Shown here: positions 22,701-62,138 of the stretch, one piece after another
How the letters are laid out: each line of letters starts with the position of its first letter
How positions within the stretch are numbered: position 1 is the first letter of the stretch
Source: Zeus faber
Taxonomy: Eukaryota; Chordata; Actinopteri; Zeiformes; Zeidae
Direction: 5' to 3'
DNA: 64,000 nucleotides
NCBI GenBank assembly: GCA_960531495.1
Contig: OY482859.1
Span: forward strand, 10,869,661-10,933,660
Translations under genes and position numbers: made by a program
Notes under the pieces: model-generated
Told to the model about the DNA's origin: nothing
The model's input: the letters and a program-made list of their open reading frames with translations, nothing else
Databases searched by the model: none

Positions 22701-24975
22701 ATGTAAATATATAAAATTATATTAAAACACAGGGAATATTGATTCAGATAAAATAGAAATAAAACATACCCAGATGATAAAACCCCTCCTTATGTAAAAG
22801 CCAGGCTAAGAAGGCGTGTTTTCAGATTATTTTTAAAGATGTCTACTGATGGTGCGTTTCTCAGGCCCTCTGGGAGGCTGTTCCAGAGACCGGGACCTTA
22901 AACACTAAAAGCTGCCTCTACTATTAATGTTTCCAAGTTGACTGAGAGAATCCCACCAACCTGTTGTCCATTCCTGCCTCTGCTTAGTGTCTGAGGCACT
23001 CATCTCATACGTCTTAGAGAGTGTTTTCAGACAGAACATACACCTCTTTCCATCTCGGTCTGGCAGCACCTGTTAAATCAAGGAAAAACTAATTGTAAGT
23101 TATATATATACACTGTATAGGAGTTAGTATGGCTTTAATATAGGTAAATAGGTTAATGATCATTAAAAGTGTGGATAGTTTTAAGTCTATGTGAAATATT
23201 TTTTTATATGCAAAACGTCTGGTGGTTTTTATCCTACTATATGTTGAAAATGCACAGTATTTTTGTATCGTAGGCCTAAAGGATAATTTTAAGGGACAAT
23301 CGCGGTTATTCAAGTCAAGTCAAGTTTATTTATATAGCCCTTAATCACAATACAGTCTCAAAGGGCTTCACAAACCTACATTTCACAGAGAAATCAACGG
23401 CATCCCCTAGTCTGAACCCTCATCCGGGCAGGGAAAAACTCCCAGAAAACCCCTTTGGGGAAAAAAGGTTGCTGGTTCGATCCCAGGCTCCTCCTGCTAG
23501 CATGCTGTAGTGTCCTTGAGCAAGACACTTAACCCCTAATTGCTCCTGATGGCTGCGTCCGTCAGTGTTTGAACAATTGTAAGTCGCTTTGGATAAAAGC
23601 GTCTGCTAAATGACTGAATGTAAATGTAAAAAAAAGGGGTGAAACCTTGAGAAGGGGCCGTAGAAGAGGGATCCCCCTTACAGGATAACCAGGCTGCAAC
23701 GGATGCCGGTTAAAGACAGTTGTTCTGAAGCTATTCTCTCAATACTGAATCAATTTAGAGATTCTGATGCCAATCAATCAGGTTGACTGCAATTGATGGA
23801 AAAAAACGGTGTATACTGGATATCAAGAGTTTTCCTTTAACAAGGTAAACAATTAAACAAAAACACATTCCTAGAAGCAGAACAGAAATGACTAAAGAAA
23901 TCCCTGAAATTTAAAACGGTAGCAAAGAAATCCTGCGTGTCACCCAAATTACCTCCACACAGCAGTTCCCATCGAGAACTATGTTGCCCTGGCAGTCCTT
24001 GCGGTCCTCCCCGGTGTAGTAGGCCAGGTTACTGGGCCTCAGAGTAAACCAGCGTTCCTTCCAGCTTCTCCTGAGCTGGCCCTTCTTCCACAGGTAGCCC
24101 TGGACACAGCCCAACCACCACACGTGATCACCCGTACCAAAATGGGACCCAAAGGACTCAAGAACTGAATTCTGGTTTCTAGAGGCGGACACAAAGGACT
24201 CATACCTCCTTCAGGACATCGCCGACTATCTCTCTGTAAACCTCCTCGATAGCCATGCCTATTATGCTTTTGTCAATCCCTCTTGTTATTTTCCCAGAGT
24301 TCATCATATCCAGAAAAACCCAAACATTGAAGCCCTTCTGCTGCACTGCATCCTGGGAGATGAAGTCCTCTAATTCGACACAGTTCAACTCAATGCTCAT
24401 TGCCATGCATATTTTCTTCAGTAGGTACTCCACCTGAGCAGAGGAGGGGAAACAAACATCTTAGTCACAGTGGTTTTGGAGGTGGAGAAGCGAGGTGCGA
24501 GGTAGGGAGGATTTTGTTTTAATTTTGAATAGAGGTCGTATCTATATCCGTAAAACCATATTCCAATGAATGGTTAATCACACTGCGGTATCATCACAGC
24601 TATGGAGCCTTGTAGAGTGGCATACCATCTGCCCCCTTAAGTAGCGGTTCGCAGAGAAAAAAAAACAAAACCTTGACAGGAAACCGAGATGTATGCTGCA
24701 AGTGAGACACAAAGTTTACACTACTTCTGCATAATAAAGGCACAGGGTTCCATAACATCAGAACACAATGCTTTAGGCCCACACAAAAAAGCTAACATTG
24801 ACCCATATTTCTACCCCATAAATTCCATGAGGTCAAATGTATGCACATACAGTTACTGTATTCCAGTTTACAAATAAGTGTCATAAAGTACCATTAATAA
24901 TAAAAATAATAGTTGTTATAATAATAATTATTATTATTGTTAATGTTATTATCATCATCATCATCATCATCATCA

Positions 24976-41324: not shown

Positions 41325-49351
<8,027 letters not shown>

Positions 49352-58100: not shown

Positions 58101-61100
58101 TATCCCGTGACCATTATTGTAATGTACGCGAGATTATACATGGAAGGGTTTGTAGCAATTTTCATTATGTATGAGATGTCAATATATTGATTAAAGAATT
58201 TTGTCGCAAGCCATCTCTTGAATATCAGATTTAATCAAATCGTGCCCCTTGGTATCAAATTGTGATTTCCTGTCCAACACGCAGCCCTAGTGCCTGCCAA
58301 AGTTTGTCGCTATTGTCGTGATATCACAGTCATCATAAAGTACAACATATTTATTGCACCTTGCATGTGTTTCTTCCATTTTGAGCGTCCCTGCAATGAC
58401 ACCAATTCATTGTGTAAATCACATTTTGTTCCAATGTAGTTGACCAAACAGTTACATGTGATGAACCTCAGTTGGATTCTAAAAAACAGGATGTTGGATG
58501 TATACGTATATCACAGTGGATATATTGTCTTACAAGCGCTAGTTTTTGTGATTCCTTCTGCAGACTGGTTAATATTGATATTAAACAGGTTGTATTGTGT
58601 GCTAAAACTTCAATTGACGTAGAAATATTGTCTTCCGTTTCATTTGCAGGCACCGTTTCCCAACAGTAGCTTTGTGAATGGATTTAGCTCTGCCGGACAC
58701 TACAAAACTGGCTCCAACTCGCTTAATATCAGTCGACCCTTCAACAGGAACCGGTAAGAACTTGTTTCCTTGATGCGCTGTCAGACCGAGTTCCTGTGCT
58801 TTGACTTAACACTGAACCGTGTGCAGCTTTCAGCATCTTCTAATTGGCATATTTCATCACTTGCACGTTGCTATACATCACACATAACCTATAATCAAAT
58901 CTGTTGCAAAGAATATTGTATCCCCATCTGCAAATTAAAATTCTTTACCCCCTGTCTTTTACTGTCCCACAGTGTCCCCCTCTATTCAAGAAAGAATGTA
59001 ATAAATGCCTTCAGGTACAGCTGTTATTATACAATAAGCTTCATCACTCCCCATCTCTTACCATACTACAGTGACCAAATGACTAAATCCATTACTAGGG
59101 CCATTGGCTCGTGCCAGACGTTTATGGCTATCATAAAAAGAGCTCTCAATAATGAGTGTTTGTTGCTCGGTCAAGGAACTTCTGGGTTTGTCATGTCATT
59201 TTGATATGTGGAGATTATTCAGGGTGAAACTATTGCAATCTGAGCAATTGGCCGTTTTATTTGAGTTTCAACCTTGCCTTTCAAACATGATCATTTTCAC
59301 AACAGCATGTTACAGTTTCACCTCATTTGAACTAATCCATTTTGTTTTTCTTTTTTAACTATTTACTTTCTCACTATTTTTCAGTAAAGTGGTAAAATAT
59401 CAAAGAAACAAGGGAATGCAATGTATGAGATTGCGACACAGGTCTACAGGTTACATAGACTGGAATTGGGTTTAGGTCTTTAGAGCTGTGGAACATTATT
59501 CTGTGCAATTTGCTGTTGACTTATTGGGCATTGACTGGAACCATTGCAAGTTGGTTTCCATGGGCTGGTGGTTTACAGACAGTGTAAATGTGAAAGATGC
59601 TTTCCTATCTCTCACTGCATTCTTTCAAAGTCAGACCTGATGATGAGATCATGATGCGCATAGAGGGAAAGTAGGCTGTTGAATAACTGACTTTGTTGCT
59701 CTCTCCTTGTTCCCTCTTTCCTTTCTTTCCCATATTTCTCTCTTTGCTCTCTCTTCCCTTTTCCAACAAAGTCATGAACCTTCACTCCTATCCCAATGAG
59801 CGTTGAGATTATGAGATCTGAGGGTTTGATGGAAATAATGACAAATAAATCTGCAGTTACTTGTAGCGGAATAATATTTTAAACCTGGGCACTGTTGGAT
59901 TCTACGCCAGGGAACATCGAGTGACATTGGAGTTATGCTCCTAGATGGGAATTTCTTAGGCAGGCCCAACAAAGAAATTGATTTGGGAGAGGTTTCACAT
60001 GTCGTTATCGCCAGCACACCCATGAGCACAAAGACAGAAAATTCCTTTCTTGCCCACATAATCTCCCTTTGGGACACAGTATGATTTCTTACCTCTTTAC
60101 TTGTCAGATCACATTTCCTGAATGATAGTCGTGACTGAGTGTCTCGTCTTACTCCACCTCAAACAGGAACCACGTTAAGCCTCAGGTGAGGACGGGCGAT
60201 GCGGCCCCTGCGTCTGTCATTCCCGTCCCCCTGGACGGCTTGAGTGGCCTACGCAGTCCGCAGAACCCCACATCTGCCGCCACCACCACTACTGCAATCC
60301 CTGCTCAGACTGCTGCCGACCTCGCCTCCGCCTTCCCACATTTTTCTTCTACTACGTCCCTGGAAGCGGGTGATGACTGCAGCGCGGCTGGACGTGGGAG
60401 GTACGAACCGGGCGAGCGCTCTTTAACTTTTGTTTTGTGCGTGCCCTAATTTTGTCAGTAGTGCAGAGGACATAACTGATGTCTATATTTGGCCTTACTG
60501 GATTAGGGATCTGGATGGACTTTGGGGTAAATAAGGTCTTCATGATCTTGAATTGTGTGTTAAAGCGTGCAACCCTTTTCTACCGTAGACGGAGTACTAC
60601 CTACAGAGGAACGCGGAGGAGGCGAGAGGACGACCGCATCACGGTGCGCTGCGATTTAGTCTTTGGAAATTGTATCATGTTTGAAGCATAGTTGTTTTTT
60701 TAGTTTTTTTTTATGTTGACACAATTTGTCTTTCAATCTCCCCTTTCAGAGACCTGTACCACTTGCAGAGGTCAAGGTGCCTCCACCCAAGTTTGACCTC
60801 GCTGCCACCAATTTCCCGCCACTCCCCGGCTGTGTGGTCAGCACACAGGGAGAGCCGGTCCTGGAAAACCGCATGTCGGATGTTGTGCGTGGTTTGAACC
60901 GAGAAAAGGTTGGGAGAAAAATTAAACTTCATTATTAAGACCTTGTTGGCATTTTCATGGTGCAGGAAGAGGGGTAAATAAGTTGCGTGCCTCCATTTGT
61001 TTTTCATAGACTGAAGTCCCCAGTAAGGAAACCACTGTGAGTGCAGGTTTGATGACGGAGGAGGCGGTGAGCGTCTCCACCGTTTCCCAGGCTGCTGGAA

Positions 61101-62138
61101 AATCTGCTGCACAGCCACTCTCATCCCCCGCCCCCAGGTAAAGGCGGATCTCAAAGATGAGATTTAAAATTGGAACTAATTTGGGGCCTAGGGGAATCGC
61201 CATAACATTGAATGGTAACCTCTAAAGTCCAAAATTGTTTTGCTTGGTAGTGTCGCACGTCCTGAGAAAAAGATTGAGAGGCCAGATCCTCCGGCCCCAA
61301 AGGTGACTCCGCCGACTCCGGCTGCGGCCACCCCGCCCTCCTTCACGCAGCCAGTGCCCAGCCCCAGGCCTCAGCCCAGCGCTGCCTCCACACCAGCCAC
61401 CCCCAGCACGCCGGTCCCAGCGACTGCCACCATCGCTGCCCCTGCACAGGTGAGGTCGTTGAAACCAGATGATCAGTAGGGGTAGGACAGGCCCGGTGAT
61501 GAGATCTTTAGCGCATAGAGGGGGAAAAAGTGGCTGTGGAACGACTGGCTTTGGTTCTTTCTTTGTCTCACTCACTCGCTCTTTCTGTCCTTTACCTCCA
61601 AAGCCACGAACCTTCACTGCCATCCCGATGAGCGTTCAGATTATGAGATCTGAGGGTTTTAAAAAGTGTTCAGGTGATGGTCAGATCTGGTTGGGGTGGT
61701 CATGTCTTTGTGAAATATCTCTCCCCTTTCCCTCGCTCCACTCAGGAACCCCGTAAGCTCAGCTACGCCGAGGTCTGCCAGCGACCACCTAAGGACCCCC
61801 CTCCCGCGGCCCCCGTCCCTGCCCCCTCCGGCAATGCGTCCGGCCAACCGCTCCGTGAGCTGCGAGTCAACAAGGCGGACGAGCACGGCTCCGGCGTCGG
61901 CCCCGGGGACAAGCAGGAGAAGGCCCATGACAGGGAGGGGGGCTGGGAATGTAAAGAAAGCCGGCCGCCACGTGAACGTGACAACCAAGGCCACTACCGC
62001 AGCAACGGCCCCAGAGGCACCGGGGGCCTCAAGTTCCGCGACCAGAGGCGTCCGCCTCCCGCCCGACGCAGCTCCCCCCAGGGAGGATACAGGCACACTG
62101 GCAAAGAGCAGAATATCCCACCAGTATCGCCAAAGTAA
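52137..62138 (+). CDS. larp4: La-related protein 4
   Basis: LARP4 binds poly(A) RNA and poly(A)-binding protein in the cytoplasm and stabilises mRNAs. Sixteen coding exons join in phase to 788 codons: 52137-52256, 54853-54967, 55478-55636, 56478-56562, 56679-56815, 57082-57185, 57316-57426, 57507-57560, 57695-57904, 58650-58753, 60167-60400, 60589-60643, 60750-60908, 61010-61137, 61251-61449, 61746-62138. A variant PAM2 motif ([11 protein letters not shown], residues 48-58, Trp in place of Phe) should contact PABP. The La motif runs from about 140 to 215 ([33 protein letters not shown]) and the RRM from about 225 to 300 ([37 protein letters not shown]). Conserved tails include [25 protein letters not shown] and [15 protein letters not shown], with an end at VSPK. 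A Pro/Ala-rich insert fills exon 61251-61449. Exon 1 adds 39 acidic/Gly-rich residues before the usual MVTSKG start. Two larp4 introns carry the RNA-like elements described separately. Confidence 0.96.
53197..53292. repeat. 32-bp minisatellite, three copies, in larp4 intron 1
   Basis: Three tandem copies of a 32-bp unit containing CATGAACATAATGTTAAATT, differing at only a few positions. Confidence 0.9.
54116..54215. repeat. Dispersed fish repeat fragment in larp4 intron 1
   Basis: TTCAAGAGATTTATTTGTCA, ATGCAGTGAAAT and CAACGCACCCGG are in the order of a repeat common in teleost introns. No ORF. Confidence 0.5.
59633..59827 (+). ncRNA. Candidate intronic C/D-box-like structured RNA, copy 1
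   Basis: It lies in the larp4 intron 58754-60166, on the host strand. A terminal stem AGACC (59633-59637) pairs with GGTTT (59823-59827). Inside it are a C box ATGATGA (59640-59646) and a D box CTGA (59818-59821), with a possible D' box CTGA at 59687-59690. An internal 11-bp helix pairs TGACTTTGTTG (about 59688-59698) with CAACAAAGTCA (about 59764-59774) across a pyrimidine-rich loop. A similar element lies in another larp4 intron. At about 195 nt it would be long for a C/D snoRNA. RNA function is inference, but the compensatory differences between copies are strong support. Confidence 0.5.
61489..61659 (+). ncRNA. Candidate intronic C/D-box-like structured RNA, copy 2
   Basis: It lies in the larp4 intron 61450-61745. 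The D box is 92 nt upstream of the 3' splice site, within the usual range for intronic C/D snoRNAs. Terminal stem AGGCC (61489-61493) pairs with GGTTT (61655-61659). The C box is GTGATGA (61496-61502) and the D box CTGA (61650-61653). The internal helix is TGGCTTTGG pairing with CCAAAGCCA. Shared blocks with copy 1 are GCGCATAGAGGG, GAACCTTCACT, ATGAGCGTT and AGATTATGAGATCTGAGGG. The pyrimidine-rich loop between the helix arms is poorly conserved. Confidence 0.5.

Follow-up and report, generated by a model that had tools for sequence, protein, structure and literature searches.

Two introns of a larp4 gene of Zeus faber harbor segments that had been proposed, in an original prediction made from the letters alone, to be duplicated structured RNAs. 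What are these segments, and what would they act on? The stretch of DNA analyzed (64,000 nt, hereafter the window) carries the host gene on the + strand, and its protein matches La-related protein 4 (PDB 6i9b, E 2.3e-87). The first segment, copy 1 (59633..59827, +, 195 nt), follows exon 58644-58754 and is located in intron 58754-60166. Copy 2 (61489..61659, +, 171 nt) precedes the SYAEVCQ exon and is located in intron 61450-61745. The borders of both introns were set by GT/AG and the exon map. The coordinates, boxes and helix arms predicted for both segments proved to be correct. When the two introns were compared by BLAST, a single strong alignment was obtained (59632-59827 to 61488-61659, 71% over 200 columns, E 2.7e-24); the next-best match covered 25 nt (E 0.049) and the remainder were short scraps. 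Thus, the similarity between copies 1 and 2 ends at most one base from the RNA ends that had been predicted.

Both copies have a 5' RTGATGA and a 3' CTGA adjoining a closing stem of 6 pairs, G-U pairs counted. Box C reads ATGATGA in copy 1 (59640..59646, +) and GTGATGA in copy 2 (61496..61502, +), and box D reads CTGA in both (59818..59821 and 61650..61653, +). The closing stem does pair in both copies, as the original prediction had it, but each of its changes (A-U to G-U, U-G to C-G) affects a single side, and hence it supplies no compensatory evidence. The internal helix was formed by the arms TGACTTTGTTG (59688..59698, +) and CAACAAAGTCA (59764..59774, +) in copy 1 and by TGGCTTTGG (61546..61554, +) and CCAAAGCCA (61598..61606, +) in copy 2. 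Here, the claim that pairing is kept despite sequence change was confirmed, with 9/9 aligned pairs formed in both copies and two double changes between them (A-U to G-C, U-A to G-C). Among 1000 column-shuffled alignments, only one contained an unbroken stack of at least 8 pairs with two double changes. A second helix drawn by eye (GUAGG/CCUAU in copy 1, GUGGC/GCCAU in copy 2) requires an alignment indel and was left uncounted. These results support a duplicated, structured box C/D RNA with signs of selection, encoded on the host strand within larp4 introns.

Directly upstream of box D, copy 1 contains the antisense guide AGATTATGAGAT (59806..59817, +), which pairs with positions 30-41 of tRNA-Met(CAT), and copy 2 contains TTCAGATTATGAGAT (61635..61649, +), which pairs with positions 30-44 over 15 nt. 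The rRNAs and snRNAs originally listed as possible targets therefore missed the actual one. As described by Vitali and Kiss (PMC6601510), two RNAs, SNORD97 (EIF4G2 intron 13) and SCARNA97, formerly SNORD133 (LARP4 intron 10), direct 2'-O-methylation of the wobble C34 of elongator tRNA-Met(CAT), and homologues of both are reported from every vertebrate genome investigated there. In human cells, reproducible hybrids of SNORD97 and SCARNA97 with tRNA-Met-CAT have been described (PMC12645875). The original prediction did not recognize the RNA as one hosted by LARP4, but it is not foreign to this gene, since human LARP4 intron 10 hosts SCARNA97 and the copies share its guide and D box (PMC6601510). 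The SCARNA97 guide plus D box, AGATTATGAGATCTGA, is found exactly at 59806-59821 and 61638-61653, and the published human SCARNA97 FISH probe, reverse-complemented, has AGATTATGAGATCTGA as its end, 16 bases identical to copies 1 and 2. When up to 3 mismatches were allowed, 13/100 shuffled windows contained the 16-mer at least twice, whereas the two matches in the real sequence are exact.

The 803-Mb genome contains the 16-mer at three exact places, namely copies 1 and 2 and a third site (C5:32449559-32449574, minus strand). The latter, copy 3, lies inside a second larp4 gene (6i9b, E 1e-90; exon map), between the GKPIM exon and another exon of this paralogue. According to the exon map, the three copies occupy three different introns. 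By exon order, the intron of copy 1 probably corresponds to human intron 10. The combined guide, box D and stem, GATTATGAGATNTGAGGG, occurs without mismatch four times in the genome, three times in larp4 genes and once beside an eif4g2 exon. This fourth place is a SNORD97 gene on C6 (L004:1501-1673), which scores 60.5 bits with the Rfam SNORD97 model RF01291, above its threshold, and lies about 2.3 kb before a same-strand exon matching eIF4G2 (3l6a, E 8.1e-47). Allowing one mismatch in GATTATGAGATNTGAGGG gave five places, against three for a reversed-pattern control. None of the five combined a box C with a pyrimidine tract in the 260 bases upstream that were examined; a box-C-like word was present in one, 114 bases upstream, and the best 60-base pyrimidine windows ranged from 0.58 to 0.72. 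A sequence model of the 3' end, run on the window together with 30 kb from other loci, recovered only its four source sequences.

The predicted target is present in the same genome. A search pattern for the anticodon arm of elongator tRNA-Met(CAT) had 42 places with up to 2 mismatches, 37 of them exact, and its reversed control one. ARAGORN, run on three of six retrieved loci, identified six tRNA-Met(CAT) genes. Exact anticodon-arm matches form two dense clusters, 15 at C2:44673753-44690702 and 20 at C19:7160811-7176755; L011-L016 lie in the former, as do the three loci with the six ARAGORN genes. Measured against one of these genes (L011), the unbroken pairing from tRNA position 30 is longest in copy 2 (15 nt), followed by copies 1 and 3 (12 nt each) and SNORD97 (11 nt), and C34 is placed opposite the fifth base before box D in 4/4 family genes.

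Akin to human SCARNA97 as described in PMC6601510, the Zeus faber copies share the host gene, the sense orientation relative to it, the box C/D ends, the 16 bases of guide and box D, an internal pyrimidine-rich region and a large size, with 216 nt in human against 195 and 171 nt in copies 1 and 2. Unlike in human, two copies reside in one gene and a third in a paralogous gene. The link to human SCARNA97 rests on the probe, the host gene and the pyrimidine tract. Anatomy, host gene, copy number, guide-target pairing within one genome and the covariation of two copies are established here, and we are highly confident that copies 1 and 2 are box C/D guide RNAs encoded in introns and represent orthologues or co-orthologues of vertebrate SCARNA97 (SNORD133).

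The region between the arms of the internal helix had been described as a loop that drifted freely. This description did not hold, as a pyrimidine-rich make-up characteristic of the family is kept. The loop measures 65 nt in copy 1 (59699..59763, +), where by analogy with human SCARNA97 (PMC6601510) it is a putative Cajal-body signal, and 43 nt in copy 2 (61555..61597, +). Scored pyrimidine segments were found in 4/4 family genes: 74 nt (0.92) in copy 1, 45 nt (0.87) in copy 2, 116 nt (0.88) in copy 3 and 71 nt (0.89) in SNORD97. Against these values, which are from our own score, stands a published pyrimidine-rich region of 93 nt in human SCARNA97, described as essential for Cajal-body location (PMC6601510). 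Segment scores as high were reached by 5, 43, 0 and 9 of 1277 window tiles for copies 1, 2, 3 and SNORD97, respectively; the segment is thus weak in copy 2, where it is much shortened. The best flank-to-flank stack is located at or near the base of the tract in all four RNAs. Shuffles reached its score in 1/500 cases for copy 1, 23/500 for copy 2, 130/500 for copy 3 and 104/500 for SNORD97, so that the helix is not significant on its own in the last two, in which 9 and 6 pairs, respectively, can be drawn at the matching place. The helix drawable in SNORD97 (GCCAGT/ACTGGC, at the base of its tract, likewise not significant alone) differs from the hairpin annotated in Rfam. Compared with single-base shuffles, the folding energy of the region from box C to the guide was not lowered in copy 1 (z -0.75) or copy 2 (z -0.77), and was equally unremarkable in copy 3 (z +0.33) and SNORD97 (z +1.40), as is the expectation for a pyrimidine loop.

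How the RNAs would act can be proposed from this anatomy and the human work. The larp4 pre-mRNA would be spliced, the intron debranched and the product trimmed to the closing stem, giving the RNA ends predicted here, and the C/D proteins fibrillarin, Nop56, Nop58 and 15.5K would then bind the trimmed RNA. At least 12 bases before box D would hybridize to the anticodon arm of elongator tRNA-Met(CAT), setting C34 opposite the fifth base, where fibrillarin would 2'-O-methylate it. Carried by the internal helix, the pyrimidine-rich loop would direct the RNP to the Cajal body. By analogy with the human RNAs, the larp4 copies, presumably expressed from their introns, may thus confer methylation, share this localization and protect the tRNA from angiogenin.

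The short tract of copy 2 allows two other readings of this copy. Surplus snoRNA copies often decay, and copy 2 could be a duplicate heading to a pseudogene, with copy 1 and the C5 copy as the only working SCARNA97 genes; a pyrimidine segment of just 45 nt and the lack of a SNORD97 match (see below) would fit. However, its boxes and guide are intact, its guide duplex is the longer one, changes in the two arms of its helix are matched and its end is 86 nt before the 3' splice site, near the distance at which box C/D processing works best. We therefore regard decay of copy 2 as unlikely. Alternatively, the larp4 copies may have divided roles, copy 1 and the C5 copy acting in the Cajal body and copy 2, with its short tract and longer duplex, in the nucleolus, like the human tract-deletion mutant. 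The SNORD97 of Zeus faber is about as pyrimidine-rich as copy 1, so that richness alone may not separate members of the Cajal body from those of the nucleolus. Neither a simple reading of the tract nor a relocation of copy 2 is favored by this finding, and a division of roles appears similarly doubtful.

Could copies 1 and 2 instead derive from SNORD97, the nucleolar sister? Among snoRNA families, SNORD97 alone fits copy 1 over its full length: RF01291 spans exactly 59633-59827, at 28.5 bits and thus under the gathering threshold of 45 bits. The guide, the tRNA target and the pyrimidine-rich interior, present also in the SNORD97 of Zeus faber, are common to both as well. Copy 2 had no RF01291 match up to E 10 and copy 3 none up to E 5, and in the whole-genome search copy 1 was found at E 2.9. 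The same search gave matches in 8 of 14 control genomes, although above the cut-off in 0/14, and scored 47 of 158066 candidates; hence, the model alone proves little. The second and third genome matches (L005, L006) lack the guide, matched mainly through pyrimidine content and were rejected. Against a SNORD97 origin, the genome has its own, separate SNORD97 adjoining an exon of eif4g2, the human host gene. Moreover, its D box is ATGA, as in the Rfam consensus, whereas the larp4 copies have CTGA and reside in the SCARNA97 host. It is therefore very improbable that the pair are copies of SNORD97, and we retain SCARNA97 as their identity.

At curated thresholds, Rfam gave nothing at copies 1 and 2. 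Its three matches in the 64-kb window were all UnaL2. Weak matches to mir-4429, SNORD56, MS2 and KCNQ1OT1 were far under the thresholds and were dismissed. Elsewhere in the window, 43983-44380 comprises a tRNA-Thr-like head at 43983-44060 and, behind it, an UnaL2 tail (RF00436) that is found at 44128-44181 and a second time at 44323-44376. The two units are arranged head to tail with a spacing of about 194 nt and are 94-97% alike. The arrangement resembles a SINE derived from a tRNA, in tandem or dimeric form, whose 3' end is of the LINE type. A further UnaL2 LINE 3' element is located at 23566-23619 (71.2 bits). Two similar intronic segments would also fit an ordinary dispersed repeat in which C and D boxes occur by chance. 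This reading has next to no probability, as a search with the guide end placed the exact matches of the 16-mer 3/3 in larp4 genes rather than at many unrelated loci, and as the similarity of copies 1 and 2 stops at the RNA ends.

In the alignment, judged by eye, copies 1 and 2 are closer to each other than either is to copy 3. This closer likeness suggests that the pair arose by duplication inside larp4, later than the split of the larp4 paralogues. The spread of snoRNAs to further introns of one host gene by cis-duplication has been described for chicken (PMC2653536), and the paralogous snoRNAs described there in different introns of one host resemble copies 1 and 2; unlike the chicken cases described, Zeus faber has a third copy in yet another intron, in a paralogous host gene. 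With regard to copy number, placental mammals tend to have fewer C/D snoRNA gene copies, as for SNORD87, with four in zebrafish and one in human (PMC3349704).

As SCARNA97 resides in the same gene in human, the kind of RNA is already known, and what deserves note is its extra copies alone. The novelty is modest: SCARNA97 is encoded three times, in three introns that belong to two larp4 paralogues, and the tract of copy 2 is much shortened. Within the literature covered, no report of extra SCARNA97 copies in fish was found. The analysis settles the identity of the larp4 intron pair and shows that the Rfam SNORD97 model, at its threshold, misses the larp4 copies. These copies provide an example from fish of copy number in a snoRNA family acting on a tRNA. 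Their tracts are natural variants, in length, of the pyrimidine region on which human SCARNA97 depends for its Cajal-body location. If copy 2 were nucleolar, it would represent a natural relocation of a tRNA guide through loop shortening.
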